Source: Deltaproteobacteria bacterium (lineage in GTDB: Bacteria > JAUYMQ01). From it: a stretch of 6,956 bases of DNA. How positions within the stretch are numbered: the stretch's first letter is position 1; every line of letters begins with the position of its first letter. Where the stretch lies: assembly GCA_030698575.1 (NCBI GenBank), contig JAUYMQ010000189.1, positions 1-6,956 of the forward strand. The letters run 5' to 3'. This document shows positions 1 through 6,956 of the stretch, piece after piece. The notes under the pieces are model-generated. The model was not told where the DNA came from and ran no database searches. It saw nothing but the letters and a program-made list of their open reading frames with translations. A program made the position numbers and the translations under genes.

Positions 1-1759
<1,759 letters not shown>

Positions 1760-1769
1760 GGCGGTCTCC

Positions 1770-2528
1770 TCAGAGCGCCCAGTAGGTCAGGGTGTCGTGG
1801 AGGCCGGCGATGATAAAGATCGCCCCGGCCAGCCGCGTGAGCACGACGCCGGCCCGTCCGAGGGTCACGCGATCCAACCCGGGGGAGGCGCCCGAGGCAA
1901 GGATCCCACCCAGGAGGAGCACGGGCACGCTCGTGCCCACGGCGAAGAGCGCGGGGAAGGCGAAGCCCACTTGACTCTGGAGGCTCAAAGGCACGGTGAG
2001 CCCGAAGAAGAGCCAGAAAAGCGTGGGACAGAAGGCCACGGCGAAAGCCCCGCCCATGAGAAAGGCCCTGGCAAGGCCCGGGCGCGGCGCATAGGCCCCG
2101 AGCCGCGCCGCGAGACGGGCCCCGAACCCGCCTCGGAGCCGCCAGACGCCGAGGAGTGAGAACCCGATCAGCAGCAGCATCGGACCCAGGACCCTCCGGG
2201 TGATCAGCGCAAGGGGGATGGCCCCGCGCTGCAGCTCCGCTCCGAGCACGAGGGCCAGACCGCCGAGAACCGTGTAGATGAGGGCCTTGCCGACCATGAA
2301 TGCCCCGGCTTCGGCCATCGCCGTGCCCCGCGGCCCCCCGCGGGAGATGTAGGCCATTGCCGAGGCGTTGGTAGTGAGCTGGCACGGCGCCACCGCCCCG
2401 ACGAGGCCGAAGAGGAAGGGGCTCAGCAGCGGCAGCTCGAGGCGGGTGGACAGCTCGCCGAGCGGCCCGGCGAGCAACGCGCTGAGCCGGCTCAGCGTCA
2501 CATACCACTCCCGCAAGATGTCCACCAC
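1770..2528 (-). CDS. CcdA/DsbD-type membrane thiol-disulfide transporter
   Basis: A 252-residue polytopic membrane protein with about six hydrophobic segments and no thioredoxin domain. CcdA/DsbD-type proteins carry reducing equivalents across the membrane with one cysteine in each of two symmetric halves. Here those are C49 in APCQLTTNAS and C167 in AFCPTLFW, matching the proline-flanked cysteines of the family. Neighbouring ccmF, 10 nt downstream, supports a role in keeping apocytochrome or assembly-factor cysteines reduced; the same protein group is also annotated as TauE/SafE-like, and the true substrate is not visible. The start is one of two consecutive GTG codons (2528 or 2525), with a G-run (GAGGGGGGGG) just upstream as a poor but plausible ribosome site. 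It follows the Rieske gene by 51 nt. The family call is firm, the partner is inferred. Confidence 0.85.
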   Translation of the reverse strand: MVDILREWYVTLSRLSALLAGPLGELSTRLELPLLSPFLFGLVGAVAPCQLTTNASAMAYISRGGPRGTAMAEAGAFMVGKALIYTVLGGLALVLGAELQRGAIPLALITRRVLGPMLLLIGFSLLGVWRLRGGFGARLAARLGAYAPRPGLARAFLMGGAFAVAFCPTLFWLFFGLTVPLSLQSQVGFAFPALFAVGTSVPVLLLGGILASGASPGLDRVTLGRAGVVLTRLAGAIFIIAGLHDTLTYWAL

Positions 2529-2579: not shown

Positions 2580-3047
2580 TCACGCCCGGGCGCTCCGGCT
2601 GACCACGACCTTGTCGCCGCGCACATTGACCGCGTACTCGTCCAGGGGGCGTGGCGGCGGCCCTGCGATGTTCTTGCCGGTGATGGGATCGTAATGGCCG
2701 TTGTGGCAGGCGCACCAGATATGCTGCAGGTCCTCCCGGTACTGGACCGTGCACTGGAGGTGGGTGCACACGGCCGTGAAGGCGTGGAGCTCCCCGGCGG
2801 GCGTCCGGACGAGGATCGCCGGCTGTTTGCCGAACTTGAACACGCGGCCGGTGTTCCACCTGACGTCTGCGGCTTTGACGTCCAGCGCCACGCTCTGGGC
2901 GCTGGACTCCTCGACGCGCGGCGGGATCAGGAACCGGGTCACCGGATAAAGCGCCGACATCATGAAGGCCCCGACCCCGGTGCCGAGAAGCCAGTTCAGG
3001 AGCGACCGGCGCTCGACCGGATCCCGCGAGAGCGTTCCCTGTGACAT
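2580..3047 (-). CDS. Rieske [2Fe-2S] protein, membrane-anchored
   Basis: A 155-residue Rieske protein, the type that takes electrons from quinol in cytochrome bc-type complexes. The N-terminus has a twin-arginine-like stretch (ERRSLLNWLL, residues 12-21) followed by one hydrophobic anchor to about residue 41, consistent with Tat export. Box I is CTHLQC (C94, H96, C99) and box II is CACH (C112, C114, H115). By family precedent C94, H96, C112 and H115 bind the cluster and C99-C114 form the disulfide. Box I has Gln in place of the usual Gly, and box II continues NGHYD rather than GSHYD, so the serine that hydrogen-bonds the cluster is Gly117 while Tyr119 is kept. The start is well set by AGGAGG at 3059-3054, 6 nt before the ATG. 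No cytochrome b or c1 gene is in the window; CcdA-like and CcmF follow. Confidence 0.96.
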   Translation of the reverse strand: MSQGTLSRDPVERRSLLNWLLGTGVGAFMMSALYPVTRFLIPPRVEESSAQSVALDVKAADVRWNTGRVFKFGKQPAILVRTPAGELHAFTAVCTHLQCTVQYREDLQHIWCACHNGHYDPITGKNIAGPPPRPLDEYAVNVRGDKVVVSRSARA

Positions 3048-3338: not shown

Positions 3339-3584
3339 TTACTCCCGCTCGCGCTCCAGGCGGCGGCGGAGGGTCGCCTCGTCCACGCGGAACTTGAAGG
3401 CGATCCGGCCATTGACCAGGACCAGCGGGATGCGCTCCGCGTAGTTGGCGTACAGGTCCGGCGTGGACTCGATGTCGATCTCACGGAGATCGAAGGGGGT
3501 GTCGCGGCGAACCTTCAGCAGCGCCGCCTTGACGTCGTCGCAGAGACAGCAGTCGCGCTTTCCATAGACCTCGACGCGGATCAC
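3339..3584 (-). CDS. Glutaredoxin-like protein (DUF836 type)
   Basis: A small thioredoxin-fold protein of 81 residues. The N-terminal strand (MIRVEVYGKRDC) leads into the active-site motif C12-C13-L14-C15 followed by a helix, and the conserved cis-proline site is RIPLV (Pro53). Such short proteins act in the cytoplasm as thiol-disulfide exchangers, though the partners of this group are poorly defined. There is no signal peptide. The extra cysteine inside the CxxC (CCLC) is visible but its role is not known. The start is a GTG 7 nt after the stop of the DUF1573 gene with no clear Shine-Dalgarno sequence, so expression probably depends on translational coupling to that gene; there is no earlier start in frame. 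It ends in TAA. Confidence 0.9.
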   Translation of the reverse strand: MIRVEVYGKRDCCLCDDVKAALLKVRRDTPFDLREIDIESTPDLYANYAERIPLVLVNGRIAFKFRVDEATLRRRLERERE

Positions 3585-3591
3585 GGGGATG

Positions 3592-4065
3592 TCAGCGCGG
3601 CCCCCAGTAGGAGCGCACGATCAGCCGGCGCTCCGGAGCGGCGGGATCGTTGGTCCGCAGCGGCGTGTGGAACTCGTGGGCTCCACCCATACCCGCGTGC
3701 ATCGTGAACTGCATCGACAGCGTCGTGGACCCGCCCGGCTTGATGGTCGTCTGCCCGACGACCGCCTCCGGCGGTCAGCAGCCCTGTACCGCCTTCACCC
3801 GCGGCACCTCGGCGATCTTGAGCGGGCCGTTCCCCGTGTTGGTCAGCGTGAAAACGACCCGGGCCGGCGCCTCGAACGGAAGGTCGCCGAGCTCCACGAC
3901 CTCCCGATCCACGACGAGACGCGGTGTCCCGCCGGAGGCGTCGGGGCCCGCGGACATCCACCAGAACGTCCCCGCTCCCAGGACGATGACAGCGAGAACG
4001 CCCATCACGGCCCACCTCCAGCGCCCACGGCGCGCCGGCGGCTCGACTCTCTTCCTCTTGCTCAT
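3592..4065 (-). CDS. DUF1573-type exported protein, probable selenoprotein (in-frame TGA = Sec97)
   Basis: Read through the TGA at 3777-3775 this gene encodes 157 residues. A basic N-terminus and hydrophobic segment (about residues 19-39) form a signal anchor, placing the rest outside the membrane. The Ig-like (ASH/HYDIN-like) DUF1573 domain follows, with the typical early strand FTLTNTGNGPLKI (about 72-84) and the late TNDP motif (about 138-141). Residues 95-99 read Gly-Cys-TGA-Pro-Pro. After the TGA the same frame runs 60 more codons, rich in G/C third positions, and supplies the second half of the domain, including TMHAGMGGAHEF. Without it the domain would be cut in half. Selenocysteine next to Cys96 is the best reading; a point error changing a Cys codon, or a recent pseudogene, are alternatives. 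The ATG has GAGGAG at 4075-4070 and overlaps the SHOCT stop (ATGA). No biochemical function is established for the family; a redox or metal-thiol role is inferred. Confidence 0.82.
3742..3766 (-). promoter_or_regulatory. SECIS-like hairpin downstream of the in-frame TGA
   Basis: On the transcript GGUCGUC (3763-3757) pairs perfectly with GACGACC (3751-3745) around the loop GGGCA (3756-3752); G-C and G-U pairs at 3766-3742 and 3765-3743 extend it past one mismatch. The loop begins 18 nt after the TGA. Bacterial SECIS elements are stem-loops inside the coding region just after the UGA, with a G at the start of a small apical loop, where SelB binds. The loop lacks the GU pair of E. coli fdhF. A competing hairpin starts within the TGA itself (3776-3760). 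Confidence 0.55.
3775..3777 (-). other. In-frame TGA, candidate selenocysteine codon
   Basis: TGA at codon 97 of the DUF1573 gene, preceded by TGC (Cys96) and followed by CCG CCG. The next base is C, a weak termination context also seen at known Sec codons. TGA is not reassigned in general here: the Rieske, CcdA-like, methyltransferase, SHOCT and polyferredoxin genes, and this gene itself, all end at TGA. Confidence 0.75.
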
Positions 4066-4367
4066 GGCTCTCCTCTCCCTGTGGGCCCCGTGGATCGCCA
4101 CTGGGCCTCGTTCTCGGCTGCCAGCAGGTCTCGTCTTCTCTCCTCGAACTCCTCCCGATCGATCTCCCCTCGCGCGTAGCGCGTCCTGAGAATCTCCAGG
4201 GCGCGGTCGCCGTCCTGCGGCGGCCGACGGGGCTGGCCCTGATCCCAGAGCCAGCGTACGCCGAGCACGGCCGCGACGATGACGACCACCCAGATGAGCA
4301 GCATGAGGAGCCCCCCGCCTCCCATCCCGACTCCTCCCCATCCCATCATGCCAGCGCCGGGCATCAT
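4062..4367 (-). CDS. Small membrane protein with C-terminal SHOCT domain
   Basis: A 101-residue protein. The N-terminus is rich in Met, Gly and Trp (MMPGAGMMGWGGVGMGGGG), one membrane helix spans about residues 20-41, and a short cytoplasmic SHOCT domain lies at about 56-82 (ALEILRTRYARGEIDREEF and following). SHOCT is a short helical domain thought to support oligomerisation; it does not define a function. Single-helix SHOCT proteins are common beside membrane and metal-related genes. The start at 4367 has AGGAGG at 4380-4375 with a 7-nt spacer; a second ATG follows directly. The stop overlaps the DUF1573 start by 4 nt (ATGA), implying coupled translation and perhaps stoichiometric production. 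The methionine-rich exposed N-terminus might bind Cu(I), which is only a guess from composition. Confidence 0.9.
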   Translation of the reverse strand: MMPGAGMMGWGGVGMGGGGLLMLLIWVVVIVAAVLGVRWLWDQGQPRRPPQDGDRALEILRTRYARGEIDREEFEERRRDLLAAENEAQWRSTGPTGRGEP

Positions 4368-4387: not shown

Positions 4388-5011
4388 TCATCGCGCCACG
4401 ATCAGCTTGATCCAGTCGGAGAAGACGTTGCGCTCTTCCACTAGGATTAAGCCGGCCTCGCGGATGGTGTCCAGCGTGCGCCGGTTTACGTGCGGCCCCA
4501 TGACGCGGTTGACGATCGGATCCACGAGGTCGAACAGCCGCCCCAGCCACCCGCGGGGCCGCATGTGCTCGAGCAGGAGCACCTCGCCCCCGTTCTTGAG
4601 CACCCGCCGCACCTCCCGCAGGCCGCGGAGCGGATCCGGCACGCTGCAGAAGACGCAGGTGGCGATCACGGCGTCGAAGGCGCCATCCCTGAAGGCCAGA
4701 TCTTCCGCGTCCGTCACCACGAGGCGGCACGCGCCCTCTACACGTTCGGCCTTCTCGGCCGCGCGCGCGAGCATCCCCGGGCTCAGGTCGGACGCCACGA
4801 TGACGGGGCCCGCAGGGTAATGGGCGATGTTCCTCCCGGTCCCCGCGCCCACCTCGAGCACCCGTCCCTTCGGCACCCGCGCGAAGATCCACTCACGGGC
4901 CCGCTCGAAGCCGAGCATGCGCTCCATCGGCGCGGTCAGGCGATCGTAGAGCTGCGCCTTGCGGCTCCAGCGCCTGAGGGCGCGCCCCGTCCCCTCCGGA
5001 GATGTCGGCAT
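4388..5011 (-). CDS. Class I SAM-dependent methyltransferase (UbiE/PmtA-like)
   Basis: A 207-residue soluble protein with a complete Rossmann-type methyltransferase fold. Motif I, which binds S-adenosylmethionine, is VLEVGAGTGRN (51-61). The acidic residue after strand 2 is D75 in ASDLSP, D101 in TDAEDLAF lies near the adenine, and strand 4 is FDAVIATCVF (112-121) with LREVRRVLKNGGEVLLLEH (131-149) as post-motif region. The sequence resembles enzymes annotated as UbiE or phospholipid N-methyltransferase, but the acceptor cannot be told from sequence; quinone or lipid methylation would suit the membrane redox neighbours. The basic N-terminal region (ALRRWSRKAQLYDRLTAPMERM) is typical of this group. 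The ATG lies 8 nt after the CuA gene stop, with a G-run (TAGGGGGG) as ribosome site. Confidence 0.92.
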   Translation of the reverse strand: MPTSPEGTGRALRRWSRKAQLYDRLTAPMERMLGFERAREWIFARVPKGRVLEVGAGTGRNIAHYPAGPVIVASDLSPGMLARAAEKAERVEGACRLVVTDAEDLAFRDGAFDAVIATCVFCSVPDPLRGLREVRRVLKNGGEVLLLEHMRPRGWLGRLFDLVDPIVNRVMGPHVNRRTLDTIREAGLILVEERNVFSDWIKLIVAR

Positions 5012-5019
5012 CGTCCCCC

Positions 5020-5418
5020 CTACGGCTCCACCACCAGGGTCCCCATCAGCGCCATGTGCAGCGGGCTGCAGCGCACGCTGCAATAGAACGGGAACTCCCC
5101 GACCCGCTCCGCCGTGAACTCGACGACCTTCGTCGTCCCGGTCCTGATGGCTCCCACGTTCACCCCGAAGTGGAGGAGCTGGAAGCCGTGCGTCACGTCC
5201 TCGGCAAGGATCCTGAGCCGCACCGTCTGTCCCTGCTTGACGACGATCCGCGCGGGGCTCCAGCCTCCGTGCTCCACGGTCCGCGCCACCAGGAAGATCT
5301 CGCCCGACTCTGCGGGCCCGTTGCGCAGCGCCTGATACGAAAAGACCGCGGCGGGAACGCCGACCGTAATGGCCAGGACAATCACCAGGGCAAACCGCTC
5401 CGCGCTCTTCATCGCCAT
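5020..5418 (-). CDS. Membrane-anchored CuA-type cupredoxin (COX2/NosZ-like domain)
   Basis: A 132-residue protein with one N-terminal hydrophobic anchor (about residues 9-27) and a cupredoxin domain outside the membrane. It has the layout of the dinuclear CuA site of cytochrome oxidase subunit II and nitrous oxide reductase: H77 in DVTHGF, then C113-SVR-C117-SPL-H121. The axial ligand, normally Met three residues after the last His, is Leu124 here; Met122 and Met125 flank it. There are no subunit II transmembrane hairpins and no subunit I gene in the window, so it is not a normal oxidase subunit. The likely role is periplasmic electron transfer or copper handling. The ATG at 5418 shares one base with the polyferredoxin stop (TGATG); a second ATG at 5412 is possible. 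It closely resembles the CuA tail fused to the neighbouring upstream protein. Confidence 0.9.
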   Translation of the reverse strand: MAMKSAERFALVIVLAITVGVPAAVFSYQALRNGPAESGEIFLVARTVEHGGWSPARIVVKQGQTVRLRILAEDVTHGFQLLHFGVNVGAIRTGTTKVVEFTAERVGEFPFYCSVRCSPLHMALMGTLVVEP

Positions 5419-6956
5419 CACCCAAGGTACAGGGCCAGGAACGCCCACGCCAGGAGCCCCAGGAAGCCCGCGAGCGGCACGAGGCCGCGCCGAGCGGCCG
5501 CCGCCTCCCCCAGCGCGTCCCTGACGATCTCGCGGGCCGCACGGACCGAGCCCCAGAGCCCGGCCAGAAGCAGGCCGAGCTGGGCCCAGGGCAGAAGCCC
5601 CAGGGGCACCCATGTCCACGTGGTTTCGCGTGTCCCGAAAAGGTCCCAGCCCCAACCAAGCGGATCTGACAGGACCCGAGGGATATAGGAGAGGTTCGGA
5701 GCCACCACTGCCAGCGTGAAGGCCATCCATGCCGCCAGGCTCAGAGGGATCAGGGCGTACGCGTAGGCCACGAAGAGCTTCCCCAGCCGCAACGACGGCG
5801 CGCCCGCCAGCGCCCGCGACAGCCACGCCGCCAGGAGATGCAGGCCCGGAAGCACGACCAGGACCGCCCCGAGGAAGAGCCCCGAGTAGAACAGGAACTC
5901 GACGGGCCCTTCGAGGTTGGCCCACGACTTGATCCACCCCCACGGCCCGAGCTTGATCACCGAGTGGGCGAGCGCGGTCCCGAGGAGGAGTAGCGCGATC
6001 CACGCCTCGTCCGCCCGGGCGCCCCGGCTCACCCGCAGGTCCGCGCCGAAAGGCCTGAGGCTGAGGGCGAGATTGTCGTGGGGACAGGCCTTCAGGCACT
6101 CGGTGCACAGCAGACAGTAGGTGTTCCGCATGAGCCCGCTCCCGGGAAACTGGAAGGTCGGGCACGGGTAGCCGGCTCCCCCGCGGAAGCACGGCTTCTC
6201 CCGGCACGTCCGGCAGACCTCGAGGTCCCGCGGCCGCAGCTCGATGGGAGCCGCCAGCGCGTAGACACCGAGGAGGCCGCCCACCGGACAGAGGTAGCGA
6301 CAGAAGACCCGCCGCTCGAAGAGAAGGTGGGTGACGAGAGCGACCGCCGCGAGCCCGAGGAGCAACGCCGCCGTGACGATGGGGCGCGTCGTCACGACAA
6401 GTCCGAACAGGACGAGCACGAGAAGGCCGCCGAAGGCCGGCCAGAGGTTCCGGAGCGCCTTCGGCCAGGGCCACCCGAGGCCCCAGACGCGCTTCCTCCG
6501 CTCGACGATCGCGCCCCGCGCAAGCCACTCGCCGGGGGCCGGGAGCGGGCACATGGCGCACCAGGCCCGCCCTCCGAACGGGATCAGGACCAGCACGAGG
6601 AATCCCCACCACGCCAGCCAGACGAAGATCGTCGAGACGTTCAGAGCTCCGGTTGCCGTCCCGACCAGCCCGCCGAGGACGATGAGGGTGAAGACGAGCA
6701 GGTTCGGCGCGATGAGCGCGAACTGGAGGGGGCGCCGCGTGAGGAGCCAGCGGAGCGGGCGCCAGCGGAGCAGGTCGCGCCGCAAGCCCGGGCGCGCAAG
6801 GCCAGCCGAGGCGAGGAAGCCCACGACCACCACCAGGCCGCCCCCCCAGAGGGGCCAGCGGTTTGGCTGCACAATGATCTCGCCCACCATGAAGGGGTGG
6901 AGCGGGCCGCAGATGACGGAGCAGCGGTAGCGGATCTTCCCCGGCCGCCCGGTCTG
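5418..6956 (-). CDS. CuA cupredoxin-polyferredoxin membrane fusion (NapH/NosR-like; 5' end outside window)
   Basis: 512 residues are visible; the frame is open to the right edge, so the start is missing and the ATG at 6890 is internal. Residues 1-33 are the end of a cupredoxin domain with C12-SVI-C16-GPL-H20-PF-M23, a complete C-x3-C-x3-H-x2-M half of a CuA site. About nine or ten membrane segments follow. Between them are the NapH/NosR/CcoG-type motifs WCAMCP (C133, C136) and FCRYLCP (C219, C223), then a ferredoxin part with C248, C251, C256, C265 and a classical C-x2-C-x2-C-x3-CP (C281, C284, C287, C291). Such proteins move electrons between the quinone pool or cytoplasm and periplasmic reductases. 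NosR has a periplasmic FMN domain where this protein has CuA. Stop TGA overlaps the next start, indicating an operon. The electron acceptor is unknown. Confidence 0.92.
   Translation of the reverse strand, partial: QTGRPGKIRYRCSVICGPLHPFMVGEIIVQPNRWPLWGGGLVVVVGFLASAGLARPGLRRDLLRWRPLRWLLTRRPLQFALIAPNLLVFTLIVLGGLVGTATGALNVSTIFVWLAWWGFLVLVLIPFGGRAWCAMCPLPAPGEWLARGAIVERRKRVWGLGWPWPKALRNLWPAFGGLLVLVLFGLVVTTRPIVTAALLLGLAAVALVTHLLFERRVFCRYLCPVGGLLGVYALAAPIELRPRDLEVCRTCREKPCFRGGAGYPCPTFQFPGSGLMRNTYCLLCTECLKACPHDNLALSLRPFGADLRVSRGARADEAWIALLLLGTALAHSVIKLGPWGWIKSWANLEGPVEFLFYSGLFLGAVLVVLPGLHLLAAWLSRALAGAPSLRLGKLFVAYAYALIPLSLAAWMAFTLAVVAPNLSYIPRVLSDPLGWGWDLFGTRETTWTWVPLGLLPWAQLGLLLAGLWGSVRAAREIVRDALGEAAAARRGLVPLAGFLGLLAWAFLALYLG

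Follow-up and report, generated by a model that had tools for sequence, protein, structure and literature searches.

A DUF1573 protein of 157 residues, encoded on the minus strand at 3592..4065 of the window (i.e. the whole analyzed stretch of 6,956 nucleotides), almost certainly contains selenocysteine (Sec) at an in-frame TGA, codon 97. As originally predicted, the Sec reading is strongly supported because computational analysis established (i) TGA at this codon in 24 sequences, (ii) a homologue with Cys in the corresponding motif, (iii) a covarying SECIS hairpin, and (iv) the Sec machinery in relatives. Judged by its sequence, the protein represents an additional selenoprotein subfamily, in which Cys and Sec are vicinal and the gene lies beside copper-site genes; a possible part of selenium in copper-center assembly thereby becomes directly testable.

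Reading frame and conservation of codon 97

The coding sequence starts with an ATG at 4065-4063, which overlaps the stop codon of the preceding SHOCT gene (ATGA), and ends with a TGA stop at 3594-3592 (codon 158). The original prediction had correctly located a DUF1573 gene with one in-frame TGA while leaving its strand unstated. A plus-strand reading of 3592-4065 gave a nonsense frame and was rejected; the minus strand gives the 157-residue protein. Codon 97 (3775..3777, minus strand), read as Sec on the basis of the alignment of relatives, lies in the motif Gly-Cys-TGA-Pro-Pro (GCUPP), and in the read-through translation Cys96 directly precedes it, forming the expected vicinal pair. The frame is open on both sides of this single TGA. 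At codon positions 1/2/3, GC content was 0.69/0.54/0.89 upstream of the TGA and 0.65/0.58/0.92 downstream of it, in agreement with the earlier remark that the G/C bias at third positions is kept. The read-through product scored 34.8 bits against the Pfam family DUF1573 (PF07610), above the cut-off of 26.1, in a match that covers residues 52-127 and spans the TGA; the second half of the domain does lie beyond this codon, as had been proposed. The truncated call of 96 residues that was anticipated is expected of any gene caller stopping at codon 97, and such callers lose 60 of the 157 residues.

In a first contig scan of genomes, codon 97 was TGA in five Rokubacteria loci and TGC in one Chloroflexi locus. 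The window itself was placed in the uncultured Rokubacteria because several of its genes are 82-97% identical to their counterparts in two loci of this phylum (L026 and L028). Rokubacteria, the phylum of the best relative, were searched as a set of 95 genomes. The gene was present in 22 of them; TGA was found in all 21 in which the site is covered, the 22nd being a fragment. GCUPP also occurs in two genomes of other lineages (G048 and G233). In the alignment, 23 of 24 sequences carried TGA at codon 97, and the Chloroflexi homologue L031 (genome G103) carried TGC, giving Gly-Cys-Cys-Pro-Pro (GCCPP), the Cys-Cys-Pro-Pro form that had been expected of homologues. As G233 adds a further TGA, the codon is found in 24 sequences from three lineages, including the window. 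A search for relatives within the family and the phylum of the home genome matched this genome alone, and a search of plasmids gave no match. One genome (G187) contained two near-identical copies of the gene (L055 and L066), one of which ends at a contig edge.

Downstream of the TGA, the window and L044 differ by six synonymous and no nonsynonymous changes, and dN/dS was well below 1 in every pair checked. By these substitution patterns, the post-TGA half is under purifying selection. A chance TGA was excluded because the codon is kept in 21 other Rokubacteria, the sequence beyond it is under purifying selection, and codons +4 to +10 hardly vary in their third base. The TGA is not a sequencing error.

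SECIS hairpin and selenocysteine machinery

The SECIS hairpin, GGTCGTC-GGGCA-GACGACC, extends from +12 to +30 after the TGA (3745..3763, minus strand) and was recognized by covariation and frozen synonymous sites. Nearly all Rokubacteria display GGTCGTC-GGNNN-GACGACC at this position, and the stem pairs in 99.2% of cells (19 distinct sequences). In three of the seven stem pairs, both partners have changed (L063, G048, and G233), with synonymous compensations among these changes, e.g. GTC to GTA together with GCG to GCT in L063. The covariation score was reached by none of 500 shuffles, and a shifted partner abolished pairing. Mean third-base entropy was 0.24 bits for codons +4 to +10 vs. 1.22 bits elsewhere in the coding sequence. 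Compared with synonymous-codon randomization, the hairpin energy was weakly significant (z about -2), and not significant for L063; because energy randomization alone is weak, the case for a SECIS element rests on covariation and on the freeze of synonymous sites. The Cys homologue L031 is without the hairpin (five of seven pairs, -2.9 kcal/mol). An Rfam scan of the window returned no SECIS match. Hairpin position and apical GG agree with the SECIS of Escherichia coli fdhF, whose hairpin starts about 12 nt after the UGA and carries GG at +19/+20 in its apical loop; the GGTCT loop of L046 is a further likeness. Compared with that element, the window stem is shorter, with seven perfect base pairs and no bulged U.

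SelB was matched in 84 of the 95 Rokubacteria genomes (above the cut-off in 83) and in 20 of the 22 carriers of the selenoprotein gene; because SelB is so common in the phylum, its presence in carriers is consistent with Sec insertion but weak evidence for it. SelA was found in G098, G099, G100, G102, G048, and G103, and tRNA-Sec with the anticodon TCA in G099, G100, G102, G048, and G103. In G099, G100, and G102, selC, selA, and selB are clustered. The Chloroflexi genome G103 has SelB, SelA, and tRNA-Sec, yet contains the Cys form of the protein. The search of the home draft (G000; 91.6% complete, 653 contigs) returned no selA, selB, or tRNA-Sec, and all three were also missing from the searched carriers G101 and G179. 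The best SelB-like match in the home genome was EF-Tu, and the best tRNA-Sec-like matches checked there were ordinary tRNAs. Since selC, selA, and selB sit together in relatives, a single assembly gap of about 5 kb could explain their absence from the home draft.

This absence would also fit a true stop at codon 97, in a gene that is truncated, decaying, or affected by a sequencing error. Such an origin is highly improbable in view of the 23 other sequences with TGA at the same codon, the purifying selection beyond it, and the covarying hairpin; in the AlphaFold2 model, moreover, truncation would cost the domain about half of its strands. A genome-wide reassignment of UGA to an ordinary amino acid, with which one TGA in frame is compatible, has a negligible probability: the gene's own stop is also a TGA, located 61 codons on at the conserved protein end in most relatives, codon 97 is aligned with Cys in L031, and relatives possess a tRNA-Sec with a TCA anticodon. 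We retain Sec insertion, in which SelB and tRNA-Sec would decode the UGA of codon 97 under the direction of the hairpin that begins 12 nt further on.

Protein architecture, gene neighborhood, and proposed function

A membrane anchor helix is predicted for residues 14-37 (3955..4026, minus strand) from the AlphaFold2 model and the basic residues ahead of it, from which we infer the membrane orientation. From residue 51 onward, the model consists of one Ig-like sandwich (pLDDT 94-98) spanning the Sec. A fold search returned Ig-like, PapD-like, and MSP folds; the closest solved structure (2qsv, Z 14.1) is an uncharacterized Porphyromonas protein. The fold match is uninformative on function. Residues 122-130 (3676..3702, minus strand) form the subfamily signature MHxGMxGxH with invariant Met122, Met126, and His130, which were found in 25 of 25 GC(U/C)PP proteins vs. 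none of 12 ordinary DUF1573 proteins. Cys96-Sec97-Pro-Pro also sets the group apart from these 12. Going by the strand order in the model, the Sec loop and the Met/His loop should share one end of the sandwich.

All genes of the window run in one direction (minus strand), from a CuA cupredoxin-NosR/NapH fusion through CcmF. Ahead of the selenoprotein gene are the fusion gene (5418..6956; Pfam PF12801), in which a cupredoxin end with the CuA motif CSVICGPLHPFM is joined to a NosR/NapH-like 4Fe-4S membrane protein, and which is cut by the window end but full-length in a relative (L026:835-2646); a CuA-like cupredoxin, CSVRCSPLHMALM (5020..5412; PF13473 and PF00116, with a motif check), whose Met spacing is one off the classical CuA motif; a UbiE-type methyltransferase (4388..5020; PF08241); and a small SHOCT-domain protein (4062..4367; PF09851). 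The next gene downstream encodes a glutaredoxin-like protein (DUF836; 3339..3584; PF05768, 62.4 bits) and also adjoins the selenoprotein gene in L047, L051, and L052. It is followed by genes for a Rieske [2Fe-2S] protein (2580..3047; PF00355), a CcdA/DsbD-like transmembrane thiol electron carrier (1770..2528; PF13386, DsbD_2), and a CcmF-like cytochrome c biogenesis protein (2..1759), which was identified by eye, is cut by the window end, and has tblastn relatives in L026, L028, and L081.

This gene set recurs, whole or in part, in L026, L027, L028, L084, and L086, and CuA-type cupredoxins, NosR/NapH-like proteins, CcdA, CcmF, SCO1, and Cu-ATPases characterize most Rokubacteria loci with wide context. 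Near the selenoprotein gene are P1B ATPases with CPC (L027, L084, and L087), SCO1 (L084), and genes for RND efflux, accompanied by an outer-membrane channel in L087 and by a CusB-like fusion protein in L083. In the Chloroflexi locus L031, CuA and NosR-like genes lie ahead of the Cys-form gene, and the stretch examined contained no CcmF. Neighbors in G048 are genes for cytochrome c biogenesis (CcmF and CcmH) and Rieske-type proteins in place of copper genes, and neither G123 nor G233 showed a copper neighborhood at the gene. We also noted secreted Met/Gly-rich proteins (MGGGMMGPGMMGGG...) near the gene (L084:9638-10069, L086:7267-7695, and L027:5608-6159). They are possibly metal-binding; a scan of the L084 protein gave no Pfam match.

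Together, neighbors and conserved residues suggest that the protein acts in the periplasm as a selenol/copper protein in respiratory-chain assembly. Five residues may build a Cu(I)/selenol site with a redox switch, to which one loop of the Ig-like sandwich would contribute Cys96 and Sec97 and a later one Met122, Met126, and His130. The neighboring CcdA would reduce this site, and the reduced selenoprotein could keep CuA-type cupredoxins reduced and aid their copper loading. We infer this role in copper and CuA handling from sequence; the explanation as a whole, a membrane-anchored periplasmic DUF1573 selenoprotein whose Sec97 takes part in such a site serving CuA, is put forward tentatively, its chances being a little short of even. 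That the protein is dedicated to copper, with Sec as a Cu(I) ligand or as a selenol reductant in CuA assembly within a conserved cluster of uncultured bacteria, is conceivable but rather doubtful.

PCuAC and Sco/TlpA are periplasmic CuA assembly factors; such factors are reviewed in PMC6696091. The window protein would resemble them in its proposed job, in the combination of Met/His with vicinal chalcogen ligands, and in having CcdA and CuA neighbors. It differs from these factors in its domain family.

The same selenoprotein might instead be a periplasmic thiol/selenol oxidoreductase that is fed by CcdA and acts in the maturation of cytochrome c or more generally in disulfide handling, without any role in copper. 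This is a serious contender, its chances only slightly lower than those of the copper explanation, as CcmF, CcdA, and Rieske genes are present in the window, CcmF, CcmH, and Rieske-type genes adjoin the gene in G048, and a vicinal Cys-Sec pair generally fits redox chemistry. Thiol exchange, however, has no need of the invariant Met122, Met126, and His130, and CuA genes are still linked to the gene in Chloroflexi, with no CcmF in the stretch examined there. Assembly of respiratory copper sites is narrowly preferred to a part in general redox chemistry or in maturing cytochrome c because CuA, NosR, SCO1, P1B ATPase, and efflux neighbors recur, despite the exceptions G048, G123, and G233.

Relation to known DUF1573 selenoproteins

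The original prediction knew of no described DUF1573 selenoprotein, but one with the motif UGC, OS_HP2, has already been catalogued; it is listed after Zhang and Gladyshev 2007 and traced to work of that year on Olavius symbionts (PMC9312934; PMC13188914). OS_HP2 (NF041425) shares with the window protein the Pfam family, a Sec in the same loop region, and a bacterial SECIS-type gene. They differ in where Sec stands: in OS_HP2 it takes the place of the first Cys in CGC, and in the window protein it follows a Cys in GCUPP. Sec at the first Cys of UGC was not found in the window protein, and all TGA-bearing relatives have GCUPP. Against NF041425, the window protein scored 26.1 bits, below the curated cut-off of 100. 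Ordinary CGC DUF1573 proteins, unlike the GC(U/C)PP group, are without the Met/Met/His signature. A 2026 review treats differing Sec positions as distinct subfamilies (PMC13188914). By sequence comparison, the GCUPP proteins are a new DUF1573 subfamily with a new Sec position, because of this different position, the window protein's sub-threshold NF041425 score (26 bits; cut-off 100), and their own Met/Met/His signature. GCUPP is absent from the 2026 catalogue of 119 families, including its DUF1573 entries (PMC13188914), and DUF1573 is not mentioned in the deep-Sep paper. As cited in PMC13188914, a 2026 groundwater study predicted that a single Methylomirabilota genome has 63 genes for selenoproteins; these may include a GCUPP DUF1573 gene.

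We also noted DUF1573 genes of the UGC type. Genome G076 contains two nearby genes (L022), each with an in-frame TGA in a UGC motif; their products scored 96 and 84 bits against NF041425 (cut-off 100) and are apparently known UGC-type selenoproteins. Another DUF1573 gene, in G286 (L104), has its TGA in a UGC motif with a hairpin shortly downstream.
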